Positions 12,739 through 29,049 of a stretch of 64,000 bases of DNA are shown one piece after another (position 1 is the first letter of the stretch; each line of letters starts with the position of its first letter). The DNA comes from Salinicola peritrichatus (GTDB lineage: Bacteria; Pseudomonadota; Gammaproteobacteria; Pseudomonadales; Halomonadaceae): positions 107,448 to 171,447 of the forward strand of contig NZ_PZJU01000029.1 of assembly GCF_003206715.1 (NCBI RefSeq), in the 5' to 3' direction. Under the pieces are notes generated by a model that ran no database searches, was not told the DNA's origin, and was given only the letters and a program-made list of their open reading frames with translations. Both the position numbers and the translations under genes were made by a program.

Positions 12739-13700
12739 GCGGTGGGCGTAACGAATGTCTGATCGTCATCGACTGGGGGACCAGCAACTTTCGTGCCTTT
12801 CTGGTCGATGCCGCCAGCGGCGAGGTGCGTGACAGCCGCCGCTCCGCGTCCGGTTTGCGTGCCCTGGAGCAGAGCGAATTTCCGCATTACTGCGCTTCGC
12901 AGATCGACGACTGGCGGGATGGCGGCGGCGCGGCTTCGGGCGCTGAAGGTGGCGCGGGTTCGGGCGTCGAAAAAGTGCCGACTTATCTTTCCGGCATGGT
13001 CGGCTCCAAGCGGGGTTGGTTCGAGGCGCCGCAGCTGGAACTGCCGGTCTCGACCGCGGATCTGGCCGACAATGTGGTCGCCGCGCCGAGGCTCGATAAC
13101 GTCTGGATCGTGCCCGGAGTCAAGCAGGTCGCGTCCGAGCATGTCGATGTCATGCGTGGCGAGGAGGTCCAGGCATTCGGCGCGCTGGCGCTGGCGGGCG
13201 TCGAGTCGGCCGATTGCTGCCTGCCGGGTACCCACAGCAAGTGGGTTCATCTCGAAGACGGGCGCATGCGCGATTTCACCACCGTGATGACCGGTGAGCT
13301 CTACCATGCCGTGCGTTTTCATACCCTGCCGGGGGAACCGGCGCGTGATGACGCGCCATTCGACCCGGCGGCGTTTCGACTCGGGCTGTCGCGTGCCGGC
13401 TGTCCGGGTGGGGTCATGCATGCGCTGTTCGAGGCGCGCAGTCGGCATCTGTATGCGGGGCTGGCGGCGGAGCAGGTGGGCAGCTTCCTCTCCGGTGTGT
13501 TGATCGGGGAGGAGGTCCGGGCGATGCGCCAGGCACGGCCGGGTATCGAGACCGTACGCCTGATCGGGGCCGCATCGCTGCGTGAAAGTTATACGTTGGC
13601 GCTGGAGACCGCCGGCATTGCCGTCGAGGCCATCGACAGCGACCGGGCCACGCTGGCGGGCGTTACGGCGATCGCTGCTCGGCATGCGTCCCGGCGGTGA
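12735..13700 (+). CDS. dgoK: 2-dehydro-3-deoxygalactonokinase
   Basis: A 321-residue sugar kinase phosphorylating 2-dehydro-3-deoxy-D-galactonate at C6, the step before DgoA. The ASKHA-type phosphate loop IDWGTSNFRAF lies near residue 12, followed by SGMVGSKRGW, a PGVKQ segment, the GTHSKWV motif and LIGAASLRESY. Start at ATG 12735, overlapping the dgoA stop. A glycine/alanine-rich insertion (GGGAASGAEGGAGSG, near residue 60) looks like a flexible loop not typical of the family. The cluster has no obvious galactonate permease gene. Confidence 0.94.
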   Translation: MSGGRNECLIVIDWGTSNFRAFLVDAASGEVRDSRRSASGLRALEQSEFPHYCASQIDDWRDGGGAASGAEGGAGSGVEKVPTYLSGMVGSKRGWFEAPQLELPVSTADLADNVVAAPRLDNVWIVPGVKQVASEHVDVMRGEEVQAFGALALAGVESADCCLPGTHSKWVHLEDGRMRDFTTVMTGELYHAVRFHTLPGEPARDDAPFDPAAFRLGLSRAGCPGGVMHALFEARSRHLYAGLAAEQVGSFLSGVLIGEEVRAMRQARPGIETVRLIGAASLRESYTLALETAGIAVEAIDSDRATLAGVTAIAARHASRR

Positions 13701-13706
13701 CTCGAG

Positions 13707-13723
13707 TGCATCAATATGGTGCA
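13707..13723. promoter_or_regulatory. Candidate NtrC binding site
   Basis: TGCATCAATATGGTGCA matches the NtrC consensus TGCACCA-N3-TGGTGCA at 13 of 14 fixed positions. Its centre is 60 bases upstream of the -24 element of a sigma-54-type promoter, a usual enhancer distance. Confidence 0.7.
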
Positions 13724-13743
13724 TCATCCAGTGACATTCCTGC

Positions 13744-13768
13744 GACGGCCCGGCATTCCCGGGCCGTC
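13744..13768 (+). terminator. Strong hairpin downstream of dgoK
   Basis: Ten-base stem GACGGCCCGG / CCGGGCCGTC around a 5-base loop, 45 bases after the dgoK stop. The downstream sequence is GTCGTTGG, not a T-run, so it is a probable but weak terminator. It sits between the NtrC-like site and the sigma-54-like promoter. Confidence 0.5.
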
Positions 13769-13772
13769 GTCG

Positions 13773-13790
13773 TTGGCACGATCCGTGCTA
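13773..13790 (+). promoter_or_regulatory. Candidate sigma-54 promoter of gpgP-gpgS
   Basis: TTGGCACG-ATCC-GTGCTA fits the sigma-54 consensus TGGCACG-N4-TTGCW with one mismatch and has GG and GC exactly 10 bases apart. The expected transcript start is near 13800, about 66 bases before gpgP. Confidence 0.7.
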
Positions 13791-13865
13791 CCTTCACTTC
13801 AATAGGCTGCGCAAGCGGGCAATCGTTAATCAGAGGCTTCCTTGAATGGCAAACAGGGTGATGCA

Positions 13866-14780
13866 ATGGGCGATGCGACGAACGGGCCGGCCTTGAACAA
13901 GCCTCCGCTGCTGATCTTTACCGATCTCGACGGGTCTCTGCTCGATCACGATACCTATGACTGGCAGCCCGCTTCGGGCTGGCTCTCCCGGCTGGAACGG
14001 GAAGCCGTGCCGGTGATCCCGACCACCAGCAAGACCCGCGCCGAACTGTTGGCGCTGCGCGAGGAACTCGGCCTTATCCAGACGCCGTTCATTGCCGAGA
14101 ACGGGGCAGTGATCGGCCTGCCGCCTTCGTGGCAGCATGCGCGTCTTGATCGCGATCCGGCATCTCCGGACGGCCTGGTGGTGAAGACACCGAGCCTGGA
14201 CGTCGATTTCATCCGGCGGCGTCTGGACGTGATTCGCGAACGGCACGACCTGCGCTTTCGCCGCATGGGGGAGATGAGCCTCGAGGAAGTCCGCGAACTG
14301 ACCGGGCTCGGTGCTGCCGCGACCGAGCAGGCAATGACCCGCGAGGGGAGCGAGCCGCTGGTCTGGGAGGACGACGAGGTCAAGCTGGGCAAGCTGCATG
14401 AGACGCTGCGTATCGACGGCCTGCATCTGACGCGTGGCGGGCGTTTCTGGCACGTGATGGGCGCGGTCGACAAGGGCCAGGCCGCCGAGTGGCTGGTGGC
14501 GCGATTCCAGGCGCTGCGTGGTTACCGCCCGCGGACGCTGGGGCTCGGCGACGGGCCCAACGATCTGGCGCTGTTGGCGGCCACCGACATGTCGGTGGTG
14601 ATCGCCGCCGGTCACGGGCAGCCGATGCCGCTGGAGAAGCCATGTGTGTACCGTACGCGGGCGCACGGACCGCAAGGATGGTCCGAAGGGGTGTCCCATT
14701 GGTTGCAGAAGGAACTGGGGTGGGAAACGGAATTCCCCGATGAACGACAGGCGCCGGAGAATGACGCCGGCGACAATTGA
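13866..14780 (+). CDS. gpgP: HAD-family glucosyl-3-phosphoglycerate phosphatase (MPGP/GpgP type)
   Basis: A 304-residue cytoplasmic HAD IIB phosphatase: motif I FTDLDGSLLDHDTY near residue 20, motif II Thr in IPTTSKTRAE, and motif IV GLGDGPNDLALL. The closest named family is mannosyl-3-phosphoglycerate phosphatase. Because the next gene is a GpgS-type glucosyltransferase, the likely substrate is glucosyl-3-phosphoglycerate, giving glucosylglycerate. Start at ATG 13866 (CAGGGTG upstream); a TTG at 13842 is in frame but less likely. Promoter signals upstream suggest NtrC/sigma-54 control. It could also act on the mannosyl analogue. Confidence 0.88.
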   Translation: MGDATNGPALNKPPLLIFTDLDGSLLDHDTYDWQPASGWLSRLEREAVPVIPTTSKTRAELLALREELGLIQTPFIAENGAVIGLPPSWQHARLDRDPASPDGLVVKTPSLDVDFIRRRLDVIRERHDLRFRRMGEMSLEEVRELTGLGAAATEQAMTREGSEPLVWEDDEVKLGKLHETLRIDGLHLTRGGRFWHVMGAVDKGQAAEWLVARFQALRGYRPRTLGLGDGPNDLALLAATDMSVVIAAGHGQPMPLEKPCVYRTRAHGPQGWSEGVSHWLQKELGWETEFPDERQAPENDAGDN

Positions 14781-14792
14781 CGAGGACGCCGC

Positions 14793-16013
14793 ATGAGCGA
14801 TTTCTATCAGAACGGTATCATCACCAACTTCCATAACCTGACCCGGCGTTCGATCGAGGCGCTGGAGAACGACCTCAAGCGGTTTTCGCGCAGCCGCCCA
14901 ATGGGCCTGATCCTGCCGTCGCTCTACTCCGAGCTGGAAGGGCCGGCACTGTCGCGCATCGTCGACGAGCTGTGCAAGGTGCCCTATCTCAGCGAGATCG
15001 TGATCGGCCTCGATCGCGCCGATCGCGAGCAGTTCCTCAAGGCGCGGGAGTTCTTCTCGCGCCTGCCTCAACACCATCGCATCCTGTGGAACGACGGCCC
15101 GCGCTTGCAGGCGTTGCAGCAGGAGCTGTCACAGGAGGGATTGGCGCCACAGGAGCCGGGCAAGGGCTGCAACGTCTGGTACTGTTCCGGCTACGTGCGC
15201 GCTTCGGGCAAGGCCGATGCGGTGGCGCTGCACGACTGCGATATCGTCACCTACGATCGCAGCCTGCTGGCGCGGCTGATCTATCCGGTGGCCAATCCGC
15301 GTTTCCACTACGAGTTCTGCAAGGGCTACTATTCGCGCATCGCCTCCGGCAAGCTCAACGGCCGCGTCGCGCGCTTGATGGTCACGCCGTTGATCCGTGC
15401 ATTCAAGATGATCTACGGGCCGTTGCCGTATCTCGACTATCTCGACAGCTACCGCTACCCGCTCTCCGGCGAGTTCTCGATGCGCGCCGACGTGCTCGAC
15501 GGCATTCGCATTCCCAGCGATTGGGGGCTCGAGATCGGCGTGCTCTCCGAAGTCCACCGCAATTTCTCGACCAAACGCCTGTGCCAGGTGGATATCGCCG
15601 ATGCCTACGACCACAAGCATCAGCCGGTGTCCGAGGACGATCCCTCCGGCGGTCTCAACCGCATGAGCATGGACATCGCCAAAGCGATGTACCGCAAGCT
15701 GGCGACCCTCGGGGTCGAGATGAGTGTCGAAAGTTTCCGCACGGTGAAAGCCACCTACTATCGCGTGGCGTTGGACCTGATCGAGGCCTATGACCACGAT
15801 GCGGCGATGAATGGACTAAAGCTCGACCGCCATAGCGAGGAAGCGGCGGTCGAGCTGTTCGCCGACAACATCATGCAGGCCGGTTCCGCGTTCTTCGAAT
15901 CTCCCCGCGACAAGCCGTTCATCCCCAGTTGGAACCGGGTGCAGGCGGCAATACCCGACCTGCAGGATCGTCTCTATGAAGCGGTGGAACTGGATAACAC
16001 AGGAGACGTCTGA
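14793..16013 (+). CDS. gpgS: Glucosyl-3-phosphoglycerate synthase (GT81-type)
   Basis: A 406-residue glycosyltransferase starting MSDFYQNGIITNFHNL, a start recognisable in bacterial GpgS proteins. It moves glucose from an NDP-glucose to 3-phosphoglycerate, making the precursor of the compatible solute glucosylglycerate. Motifs: an N-terminal LILPSLYSELEGPAL donor region, the DxD-like ALHDCDIVTYD near residue 150, and LSGEFSMRADVL and DWGLEIGVLSE acceptor-site regions. GAGGA precedes the ATG; only 12 bases separate it from gpgP, so the two form one operon. It is cytoplasmic, with no membrane helix. Confidence 0.9.
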   Translation: MSDFYQNGIITNFHNLTRRSIEALENDLKRFSRSRPMGLILPSLYSELEGPALSRIVDELCKVPYLSEIVIGLDRADREQFLKAREFFSRLPQHHRILWNDGPRLQALQQELSQEGLAPQEPGKGCNVWYCSGYVRASGKADAVALHDCDIVTYDRSLLARLIYPVANPRFHYEFCKGYYSRIASGKLNGRVARLMVTPLIRAFKMIYGPLPYLDYLDSYRYPLSGEFSMRADVLDGIRIPSDWGLEIGVLSEVHRNFSTKRLCQVDIADAYDHKHQPVSEDDPSGGLNRMSMDIAKAMYRKLATLGVEMSVESFRTVKATYYRVALDLIEAYDHDAAMNGLKLDRHSEEAAVELFADNIMQAGSAFFESPRDKPFIPSWNRVQAAIPDLQDRLYEAVELDNTGDV

Positions 16014-27273: not shown

Positions 27274-29049
27274 TCAGGGCTGCACCAACCACAGACTGCG
27301 ATAGGGGCGCAGAATATCGCGCTCTTCCGGATGTGGATTCCAGTGTCTGCCATCCTTGAGTACGTCGTACCAGTCGCCTTCGGCGAGTTCGGCGATATCC
27401 AGTGGCTGGCGCTTGTCGCTGATGTTGTAGATCGCCAGCAGACGGCGGCCGTTGGCCAGCGGGCCGCGCTCGATGGCGAAGATGCCCGGCGGTGTCTCGA
27501 GCACCCGCTGTGGCGCCTCGGGATGGAAACAGGGCTCGTTGGCGCGAATGTTGAGACGCCGCTTGAGCGAGGTGAAGGCCTCGCGGGTCGGCGTGCTGCG
27601 GCTGTCGATCAGTTCGTCGAGTTCTTCCTTGGGCCATTGGCGGCGATTGATCGAACGCAGCCGACCACTGCGCTCGACGCCCTCGTGATCGTTGAGCGTC
27701 GCGGTCAGCGAATGGAAGTAGATCCCGGGAATCCCCTGCAGCGCCAGCATCAGGTTCTGGCTGCACAGGAAGCGTTCCACCTGCCAGGCATCGGGACCGC
27801 GGCGCGTGCCTTTCATGGCATCGTAGTAGGTGATGTTGATCTCATAGGGGGAATCGCTGCCGTCGGGGTTGGTCCTCATGCTGACGTAGCCACCGAAGCG
27901 GTGCATCAGTTCGAGCAGGATCTGCAGGTCGTGCGGTGGCAACAGGCCTTCCAGCGCGCGTACGCCGATACCGTCGTGGCTGGCGGTGAAGTTGAAATAG
28001 GTACATCCCGGTGGCAGCTGCGGCAGCGAGCGGGCCCAGTCGCTCAGCGTGGTGGCGTCGCCGCTGGTCAGGGTGTGCACCAGCAGCGGCGGCAACGTGA
28101 ACTGATAGATCATGTGGGCTTCGTCAGGCATCGTCCGGGGATCCTCGAGACGCTCCAGTCCGAAGTAGCTCATGTTCTCGTTGTGGGGCACGTTGGTTTC
28201 GGTGATCAACAGCGTACCCGGCGCCACGAAATCCAGGATCGCGCGCATCAACCTCACGATGGCGTGGGTCTGCGGCAGGTGTACGCAGTTGGTTCCGACC
28301 TCTTTCCACAGATAGGTGATGGCGTCCAGGCGAATGATGCGGGCGCCTTGCTGGACATAGAAAAGCAGGATGCCGACGAATTCGAGCAGCACGTCCGGAT
28401 TGGCGAAATTGAGATCGATCTGGTCGTCGGAGAAGGTGGCCCACAGGTAGCGGGTGCCACGACGGGTCGAGACCGGTACCAGCAGCGGCGAATTGCGGGG
28501 CCGGGTGACCTGGGACAGATCGGTTTCCGGGTCCATCTCGATGAAGTAGTCACGGCCTGGCTGGGTGCCGGAGAGATAGTCGGTGAACCATAGCGACTCG
28601 CGCGAGACGTGATTGATCACCAGGTCGACCATCAGGTCGATGCGCGAGGCAAGACGCCGCACGTCCTGCCAGGTGCCCAGCTTGGGGTTGACTTCGCGAT
28701 AGTGAACGACCGAGAAGCCGTCGTCGCTGCTCCAAGGGAAGAAAGGCAGGATATGCAGGCCGCTGAAGGTGCCATTGAGGCGGGTCGCGAGGAAATCGTC
28801 GAGGACCTCCAGCGGCGGGCGCTCACCGTCGATGATGGTGTCGCCATAGGTGATCAGGATCTGGTCGCGTTCGCTCCAGGTCGGCCGCGGAAGACTGTCC
28901 AGTGCACTTCGCTGGTGCATCAGCAGTGTCATCAACCGCCGCATCACCTCGTCGCGGCGCGGCCCGTAGACCTCTTCGAGTCGCGCACTGGCGCGTTCAA
29001 TGAATGCCTCTTCGGAGAGCGCAGGATAATTCGCGGCACGGCTGGGCAT
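27274..29049 (-). CDS. GH13_18 sugar phosphorylase (glucosylglycerate or glucosylglycerol phosphorylase type)
   Basis: A 591-residue cytoplasmic enzyme of the sucrose phosphorylase clan. Landmarks: HILPFFPWSSDDGFSVVHY, DLVINHVSRESLWF, the nucleophile region IIRLDAITYLWKE (Asp), acid/base LLITETNVPHNE (Glu) and FTASHDGIGVRALEG (His-Asp). At 591 residues it is longer than sucrose phosphorylases (~490-500) and in the range of glucosylglycerate (YcjM) and glucosylglycerol phosphorylases, with a ~60-residue N-terminal extension. It breaks an alpha-glucoside with phosphate to give glucose-1-phosphate. The gpgS/gpgP genes 11 kb away make glucosylglycerate the favoured but unproven substrate. Confidence 0.85.
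   Translation of the reverse strand: MPSRAANYPALSEEAFIERASARLEEVYGPRRDEVMRRLMTLLMHQRSALDSLPRPTWSERDQILITYGDTIIDGERPPLEVLDDFLATRLNGTFSGLHILPFFPWSSDDGFSVVHYREVNPKLGTWQDVRRLASRIDLMVDLVINHVSRESLWFTDYLSGTQPGRDYFIEMDPETDLSQVTRPRNSPLLVPVSTRRGTRYLWATFSDDQIDLNFANPDVLLEFVGILLFYVQQGARIIRLDAITYLWKEVGTNCVHLPQTHAIVRLMRAILDFVAPGTLLITETNVPHNENMSYFGLERLEDPRTMPDEAHMIYQFTLPPLLVHTLTSGDATTLSDWARSLPQLPPGCTYFNFTASHDGIGVRALEGLLPPHDLQILLELMHRFGGYVSMRTNPDGSDSPYEINITYYDAMKGTRRGPDAWQVERFLCSQNLMLALQGIPGIYFHSLTATLNDHEGVERSGRLRSINRRQWPKEELDELIDSRSTPTREAFTSLKRRLNIRANEPCFHPEAPQRVLETPPGIFAIERGPLANGRRLLAIYNISDKRQPLDIAELAEGDWYDVLKDGRHWNPHPEERDILRPYRSLWLVQP

Follow-up and report, generated by a model that had tools for sequence, protein, structure and literature searches.

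The DNA between dgoK and the gpgP-gpgS operon of Salinicola peritrichatus, in the 64,000-nucleotide stretch analysed here (the window), raises the question of what switches on an operon whose predicted product, glucosylglycerate, is an osmolyte, and for what purpose. The original prediction, made from the letters of the window, placed the two genes under NtrC and sigma-54, and comparison in silico supports this strongly: that is, through the sites themselves, their spacing, their conservation among relatives and their pairing in the organism's own genome. We consider it very probable that gpgP-gpgS belongs to the NtrC/sigma-54 regulon and would be switched on at nitrogen shortage, making glucosylglycerate.

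Downstream of dgoK, which ends at 13700, lies a palindrome that reads TGCATCA-ATA-TGGTGCA and agrees at 13 of 14 fixed positions with TGCACCA-N3-TGGTGCA, which we take to be the NtrC consensus and used in all counts here (Table 1). It is followed by a site reading TGGCACG-ATCC-GTGCT, to be compared with what we take to be the sigma-54 consensus, TGGCACG-N4-TTGCW, likewise used throughout; the invariant GG (13775-13776) and GC (13787-13788) are present with ten bases between them, as in a -24/-12 core. The gpgP transcript would be predicted to start about 12 nt past the GC, near 13800. This puts the centre of the palindrome, at 13715, some 85 bp before the start, inside the interval of about 80-160 bp that characterizes NtrC-dependent sigma-54 promoters, and both sites precede gpgP-gpgS. 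The letters thus bear out the earlier reading of the NtrC match, of its distance from the start and of a near-perfect sigma-54 promoter with GG-N10-GC spacing, the last having been placed at 13773-13790. A simple scan of 13600-13900 found no sigma-70-like promoter, although such a scan could miss one.

Table 1. Positions in the window, and elsewhere in the same genome (last line), of the features discussed in the text
Feature	Position	Strand	Description
NtrC-binding-site-like palindrome TGCATCAATATGGTGCA	13707..13723	.	predicted enhancer site; 1 mismatch in 14 fixed positions
Perfect inverted repeat, 11 bp, 5-nt loop	13743..13769	.	between enhancer and promoter; RNA fold
Sigma-54 (-24/-12) promoter-like site TGGCACGATCCGTGCT	13774..13789	+	1 mismatch in 12 fixed positions; start predicted near 13800
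gpgP	13866..14780	+	HAD-family phosphatase, mannosyl/glucosyl-3-phosphoglycerate phosphatase kind; TIGR01486 243.3 bits, cut-off 164.75
gpgS	14793..16013	+	glucosyl-3-phosphoglycerate synthase family; NF040724 350.5 bits, cut-off 700
Sucrose-phosphorylase-like GH13 protein	27274..29049	-	591 aa; TIGR03852 183 bits, below cut-off 334
Further predicted NtrC/sigma-54 pairs	G000:C15:50499-50585; G000:C49:39011-39140; G000:C81 near 15382; G000:C45 near 139249; G000:C74 near 4752		before solute-binding protein, carbon-nitrogen hydrolase and cytosine permease genes

NtrC activation of the sigma-54 polymerase is an established enhancer-dependent mechanism. At this locus, shortage of nitrogen would lead NtrB to phosphorylate NtrC, and phosphorylated NtrC would bind the palindrome; the DNA would loop over the inverted repeat lying between enhancer and promoter, the NtrC ATPase would open the sigma-54 polymerase held at the -24/-12 core, and transcription would run from near 13800 through gpgP and gpgS. 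The cell would then make glucosylglycerate, a nitrogen-free anionic solute. We infer NtrC binding, the start site, the nitrogen response, the identity of the product and its physiological purpose from sequence. The regulators are at hand, as the host genome encodes NtrB, NtrC (752 bits, cut-off 558.6) and RpoN.

Each of the two patterns taken singly is unremarkable in the window, where the NtrC pattern with at most three mismatches occurs three times (2.9 expected) and the sigma-54 pattern with at most two mismatches nine times (12.45 expected). Over the whole 4.6-Mb genome the NtrC pattern with at most two mismatches occurs at 27 places versus 6 in a reversed control, whereas the sigma-54 pattern with at most one mismatch, at 52 sites versus 49, is by itself not enriched. 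It is the pairing of the sites, not either pattern alone, that carries the information. That is, six sigma-54-like sites in the window (at most two mismatches) keep the GG and GC, and their best NtrC-like partner has one mismatch at gpgP and six at each of the other five. For each of the 52 genomic sites, the interval from 60 to 160 bp before the expected start was examined for its best NtrC-like word; this has at most three mismatches in seven cases, four in two and five to seven in 43, and by total mismatches the gpgP pair shares first place with two further pairs. The remaining six of the seven precede genes for two family-3 solute-binding proteins, a binding protein of the branched-chain amino acid/urea type, NtrB (NF008293 371 bits, cut-off 240), a carbon-nitrogen hydrolase and a cytosine permease (NF008241 528 bits, cut-off 326), all of them of nitrogen type by family, with family matches that leave the substrates of the binding proteins unsettled. 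Furthermore, NtrC-like sites with at most two mismatches lie by glnA and a urocanase gene.

Of the 275 genomes of the family, 193 have a GpgS match, in a few cases a weak one; all 18 genomes of the genus are among the 193. Upstream regions were compared at 70 loci, 30 from the family search (the window's own included) and 40 chosen across genera, and every one has a gpgP match. A sigma-54 core, defined as having at most two mismatches with GG and GC kept, was found in 62 of the 70 regions, where dinucleotide shuffles would lead one to expect 2.5, and 48 regions have the two sites together at 60-160 bp, the corresponding expectation being 0.075; the rows of a family being related, such figures measure departure from composition and not independent events. 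Among the 62 loci with a core, the best NtrC-like word has 0, 1, 2, 3, 4 or 5 mismatches in 1, 7, 18, 24, 8 and 4 loci, respectively, so that a site with at most three mismatches is present in 50 (0.63 by shuffles). A test free of any consensus, in which all 6-mers of the 125 bp preceding the core were counted for the 56 regions left after removal of near-copies, gave the same picture: the commonest word was GCACCA/TGGTGC, i.e. the NtrC half-site, found in 50 of the 56 regions versus 6.8 expected and versus a top count of 25 for any 6-mer in 100 shuffles, and the most enriched words were the half-site and words overlapping it. Shuffles, 6-mer counts and the ranking in the own genome together led us to reject chance matches as the source of the pair. 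The check proposed with the original prediction, whether both sites are conserved next to gpgP in relatives, was therefore answered in its favour, within a clear phylogenetic limit.

The promoter keeps its place before gpgP while the upstream gene changes. Of the best 80 of 219 relatives (the named loci), no more than 27 carry dgoK in the 700 bp upstream, and in Larsenimonas rhizosphaerae and Phytohalomonas dgoK is present but the promoter is not, so the idea that the promoter is part of a dgoK context was rejected.

Several findings weigh against nitrogen control of the operon. The core is missing at eight of the 70 loci, which belong to Kushneria (two), Larsenimonas (two), Phytohalomonas (one) and genus g23 (three, of which L082 and L084 have a core with three mismatches together with an NtrC-like site with two); at 12 of the 62 loci with a core the NtrC-like sites have four or five mismatches. 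Under the rule applied to the 70 regions, the core is present in 41 of the 80 named loci and both sites in 31; when up to four mismatches are allowed for NtrC in these loci plus the window, both sites are present in 38, the core only in 4 and neither in 39. Kushneria, Larsenimonas, Phytohalomonas, Pokkaliibacter and five of the six Alcanivoracaceae loci have gpgP-gpgS with neither pair nor core, and all 21 Erwiniaceae loci (no Dickeya among them) are without the promoter. Moreover, a strict spaced pattern searched in the 275 genomes, with an allowed gap too narrow for sensitivity, gave five matches, all upstream of gpgP by coordinates, versus seven in the reversed control.

In a tree of GpgS, every row with the pair falls inside one fork of 49 rows (support 100/99), and Phytohalomonas, Kushneria and Larsenimonas lie outside it, in an order that is weakly supported (80/35, 86/82). 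Within this fork, neither pair nor core is present in Pokkaliibacter, in five of the six Alcanivoracaceae and in one Vreelandella (L241), whose version is weaker. The tree is compatible with one gain followed by losses as well as with more complex histories. Loss of the regulators as the cause of promoter absence was rejected, as ntrC and rpoN were found in all 16 genomes tested, including all eight from Kushneria (four), Larsenimonas (three) and Phytohalomonas (one). Because the genera lacking the pair have ntrC, rpoN and, in part, the dgoK neighbour, the nitrogen wiring looks lineage-specific rather than general to gpgP-gpgS operons. The Alloalcanivorax/Alcanivorax GpgS proteins (L222, L225-L229) nest beside Modicisalibacter, which suggests that the Alcanivoracaceae may have acquired GpgS from halomonads; the sixth of these loci has a doubtful core only.

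A wider proposition is that glucosylglycerate was wired once to nitrogen control in a clade comprising Cobetia, Salinicola, Chromohalobacter, Halomonas, Onishia and Modicisalibacter, chiefly as a response to nitrogen starvation and not to osmotic stress, with the anionic osmolyte being swapped at the level of transcription from glutamate, which requires nitrogen, to glucosylglycerate, which requires none; we would put the chances of its holding in full as evenly balanced. If true, such clade-wide wiring would give a gene-level mechanism for a link between nitrogen and glucosylglycerate seen in several phyla, and Kushneria, Larsenimonas and Phytohalomonas would be natural controls that have the enzymes and lack the switch. 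According to a review, glutamate can give way to glucosylglycerate as the counter-ion when nitrogen is limited (PMC11009771); for Planctomycetes, limiting nitrogen is named as the condition under which they produce it (PMC5924519). The original prediction had the new solute replace nitrogen-rich ones such as ectoine. In the 4.5 kb of the own genome that hold ectC, no NtrC-like site better than four mismatches and no sigma-54-like site better than three were found on the gene strand; ectC is thus without matching nitrogen control in this stretch, a result that bears on regulation and not on the idea of metabolic replacement.

The purpose could also be a different one under the same nitrogen control, namely carbon overflow or storage, in which surplus glucose and 3-phosphoglycerate would be parked as glucosylglycerate and later reclaimed. 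We regard this reading, compatible with nitrogen control of the operon, as possible though rather doubtful. Mycobacteria are said to reclaim glucosylglycerate after nitrogen starvation, their glucosylglycerate hydrolases acting on recovery (PMC11009771). A sucrose-phosphorylase-like GH13 protein encoded about 11 kb from gpgS might degrade glucosylglycerate or a similar glucoside, its best PDB match being a glucosylglycerol phosphorylase (E 1e-53), but an NtrC-like word with two mismatches at 28903 lies inside its coding sequence and is probably there by chance. Furthermore, halomonads also store polyhydroxyalkanoate. The data are compatible with carbon storage as well as with replacement of glutamate or of ectoine.

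Whether nitrogen is the signal at all can be asked in view of the product: the operon might mainly be served by an osmotic promoter of the sigma-70 type (one with a weak consensus included) or the sigma-38 type, to which the NtrC/sigma-54 pair would add little. Glucosylglycerate is indeed an osmolyte, and Chromohalobacter salexigens is reported to make it when salinity is low, and to do so in an ectoine-synthase mutant as well (PMC3308980), an observation that also tells against nitrogen shortage as sole trigger; nitrogen therefore need not be the only input. In the same report, however, glucosylglycerate was undetected at high salinity, a pattern that fits a non-osmotic trigger, in a study that did not put nitrogen to the test. 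With the scan described above having found no sigma-70-like promoter, and with the sigma-54 core kept in 62 of the 70 loci, we consider an osmotic promoter quite improbable as the main driver and retain NtrC/sigma-54 control. Least probable of all, in our judgement, is a sigma-54-dependent promoter whose main activator is another enhancer-binding protein, responding for instance to osmotic stress or carbon supply, with the NtrC-like site secondary or shared. In its favour, the NtrC model has 22 matches in the own genome, partial ones included, so that activators other than NtrC do exist; conservation of the sigma-54 core exceeds that of the NtrC-like site; and for ectC of Halomonas elongata a sigma-54-like promoter accompanied by a FleQ-like box is described (PMC3187862). 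Against it, the NtrC half-site and its overlapping words are the most enriched upstream, and each of the six other best pairs stands before a gene that is of nitrogen type by family.

NtrC/sigma-54 promoters are known at nitrogen-assimilation genes of the glnA, ntrB and glnK type. The gpgP promoter has the same palindrome, -24/-12 core and spacing as these, and in the own genome the pair also precedes ntrB and an NtrC-like site lies by glnA, whereas the target here would be an osmolyte operon and not a gene for nitrogen uptake or assimilation. As a precedent, the H. elongata ectC promoter comes nearest; it has a mapped start and was related to nitrogen by its authors (PMC3187862). Like gpgP-gpgS, it serves a compatible-solute gene in the same family, with a sigma-54-like promoter and a discussion of nitrogen supply; unlike gpgP, ectC has the FleQ-like upstream box and a nitrogen-rich product, and the Salinicola ectC stretch is without such a site. 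Accumulation of glucosylglycerate under nitrogen limitation is reported for cyanobacteria, Dickeya/Erwinia, mycobacteria and Planctomycetes (PMC11009771, PMC5924519), with the same product and the same proposed trigger as here, whereas the available text of these sources gives no transcriptional mechanism and the Erwiniaceae loci above lack the promoter.

A literature search of partial coverage, outside which most subscription journals fall, found no paper describing control of gpgS by NtrC or sigma-54, in keeping with the earlier statement that no direct nitrogen link had been described in halomonads. The word stem glucosylglycer is absent from the main text of a Salinicola genome paper surveying osmolytes (PMC5518125), and a study tying RpoN to another solute in Salinicoccus halodurans names glucosylglycerate, in its available text, only in a reference (PMC4685198). 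In many halomonads, the conserved NtrC/sigma-54 promoter before the biosynthetic genes would be a direct cause, testable with mutants, for the link between nitrogen and glucosylglycerate; if so, nitrogen feeding should alter the solute mix in halomonads used for compatible-solute production.

As to the enzymes, GpgP is a HAD-IIB phosphatase of the MPGP type whose best PDB match is 1xvi (E 2.5e-58); since no equivalog cut-off was reached, either a glucosyl or a mannosyl specificity would be compatible with its sequence. Its ATG start has a possible TTG alternative at 13842. gpgS begins 12 bp past the gpgP stop, and the two genes are expected to share one transcript. The GpgS model is the best NCBIfam match of the second protein, which has no Pfam match at E 0.001 and matches six PDB sequences, four named GpgS and two 'putative uncharacterized' (best E 6.3e-6); residues D148 and D150 are invariant among 16 aligned GpgS. 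Its nearest relatives are at 16 loci with 94-97% identity, 15 of them named Salinicola, and it is 83-84% identical to the protein of five named Chromohalobacter other than C. salexigens. Family membership, with both proteins below equivalog cut-offs, and the reported accumulation of glucosylglycerate by C. salexigens (PMC3308980) point to this solute as the probable product of the operon.

As RNA, the inverted repeat between the two regulatory sites has a computed folding energy of -25.9 kcal/mol (z -3.49). It has no T-run and was not called a terminator by the scan, and it may perhaps mark the end of the upstream dgoK transcript.

Beyond the family, a GpgS match was found in 51 of 369 genomes of the class, three of these in the family itself, and 36 loci from other gammaproteobacteria were examined, among which class-wide conservation of the NtrC/sigma-54 promoter was not found. 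At four of the 36 (L157, L160, L166 and L173) the 500 bp before the first gene of the operon contain an NtrC-like site with at most two mismatches, the one at L160 being perfect; at L161, L171 and L179 such a site lies elsewhere in the stretch examined. Among the former four, a sigma-54 core with at most two mismatches was found at L157 only, at the predicted gene start. Because the cores at these distant loci are poor or ill-placed, we claim no NtrC control for them. At ten of the 36 loci (L160, L161, L165, L166, L170-L173, L175 and L179) a D-glycerate 3-kinase-like gene lies upstream of gpgP-gpgS, although no gpgP was matched at L171; the best PDB matches of the L179 protein are D-glycerate 3-kinases (E 7e-20). 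Such a neighbour could feed 3-phosphoglycerate to GpgS.

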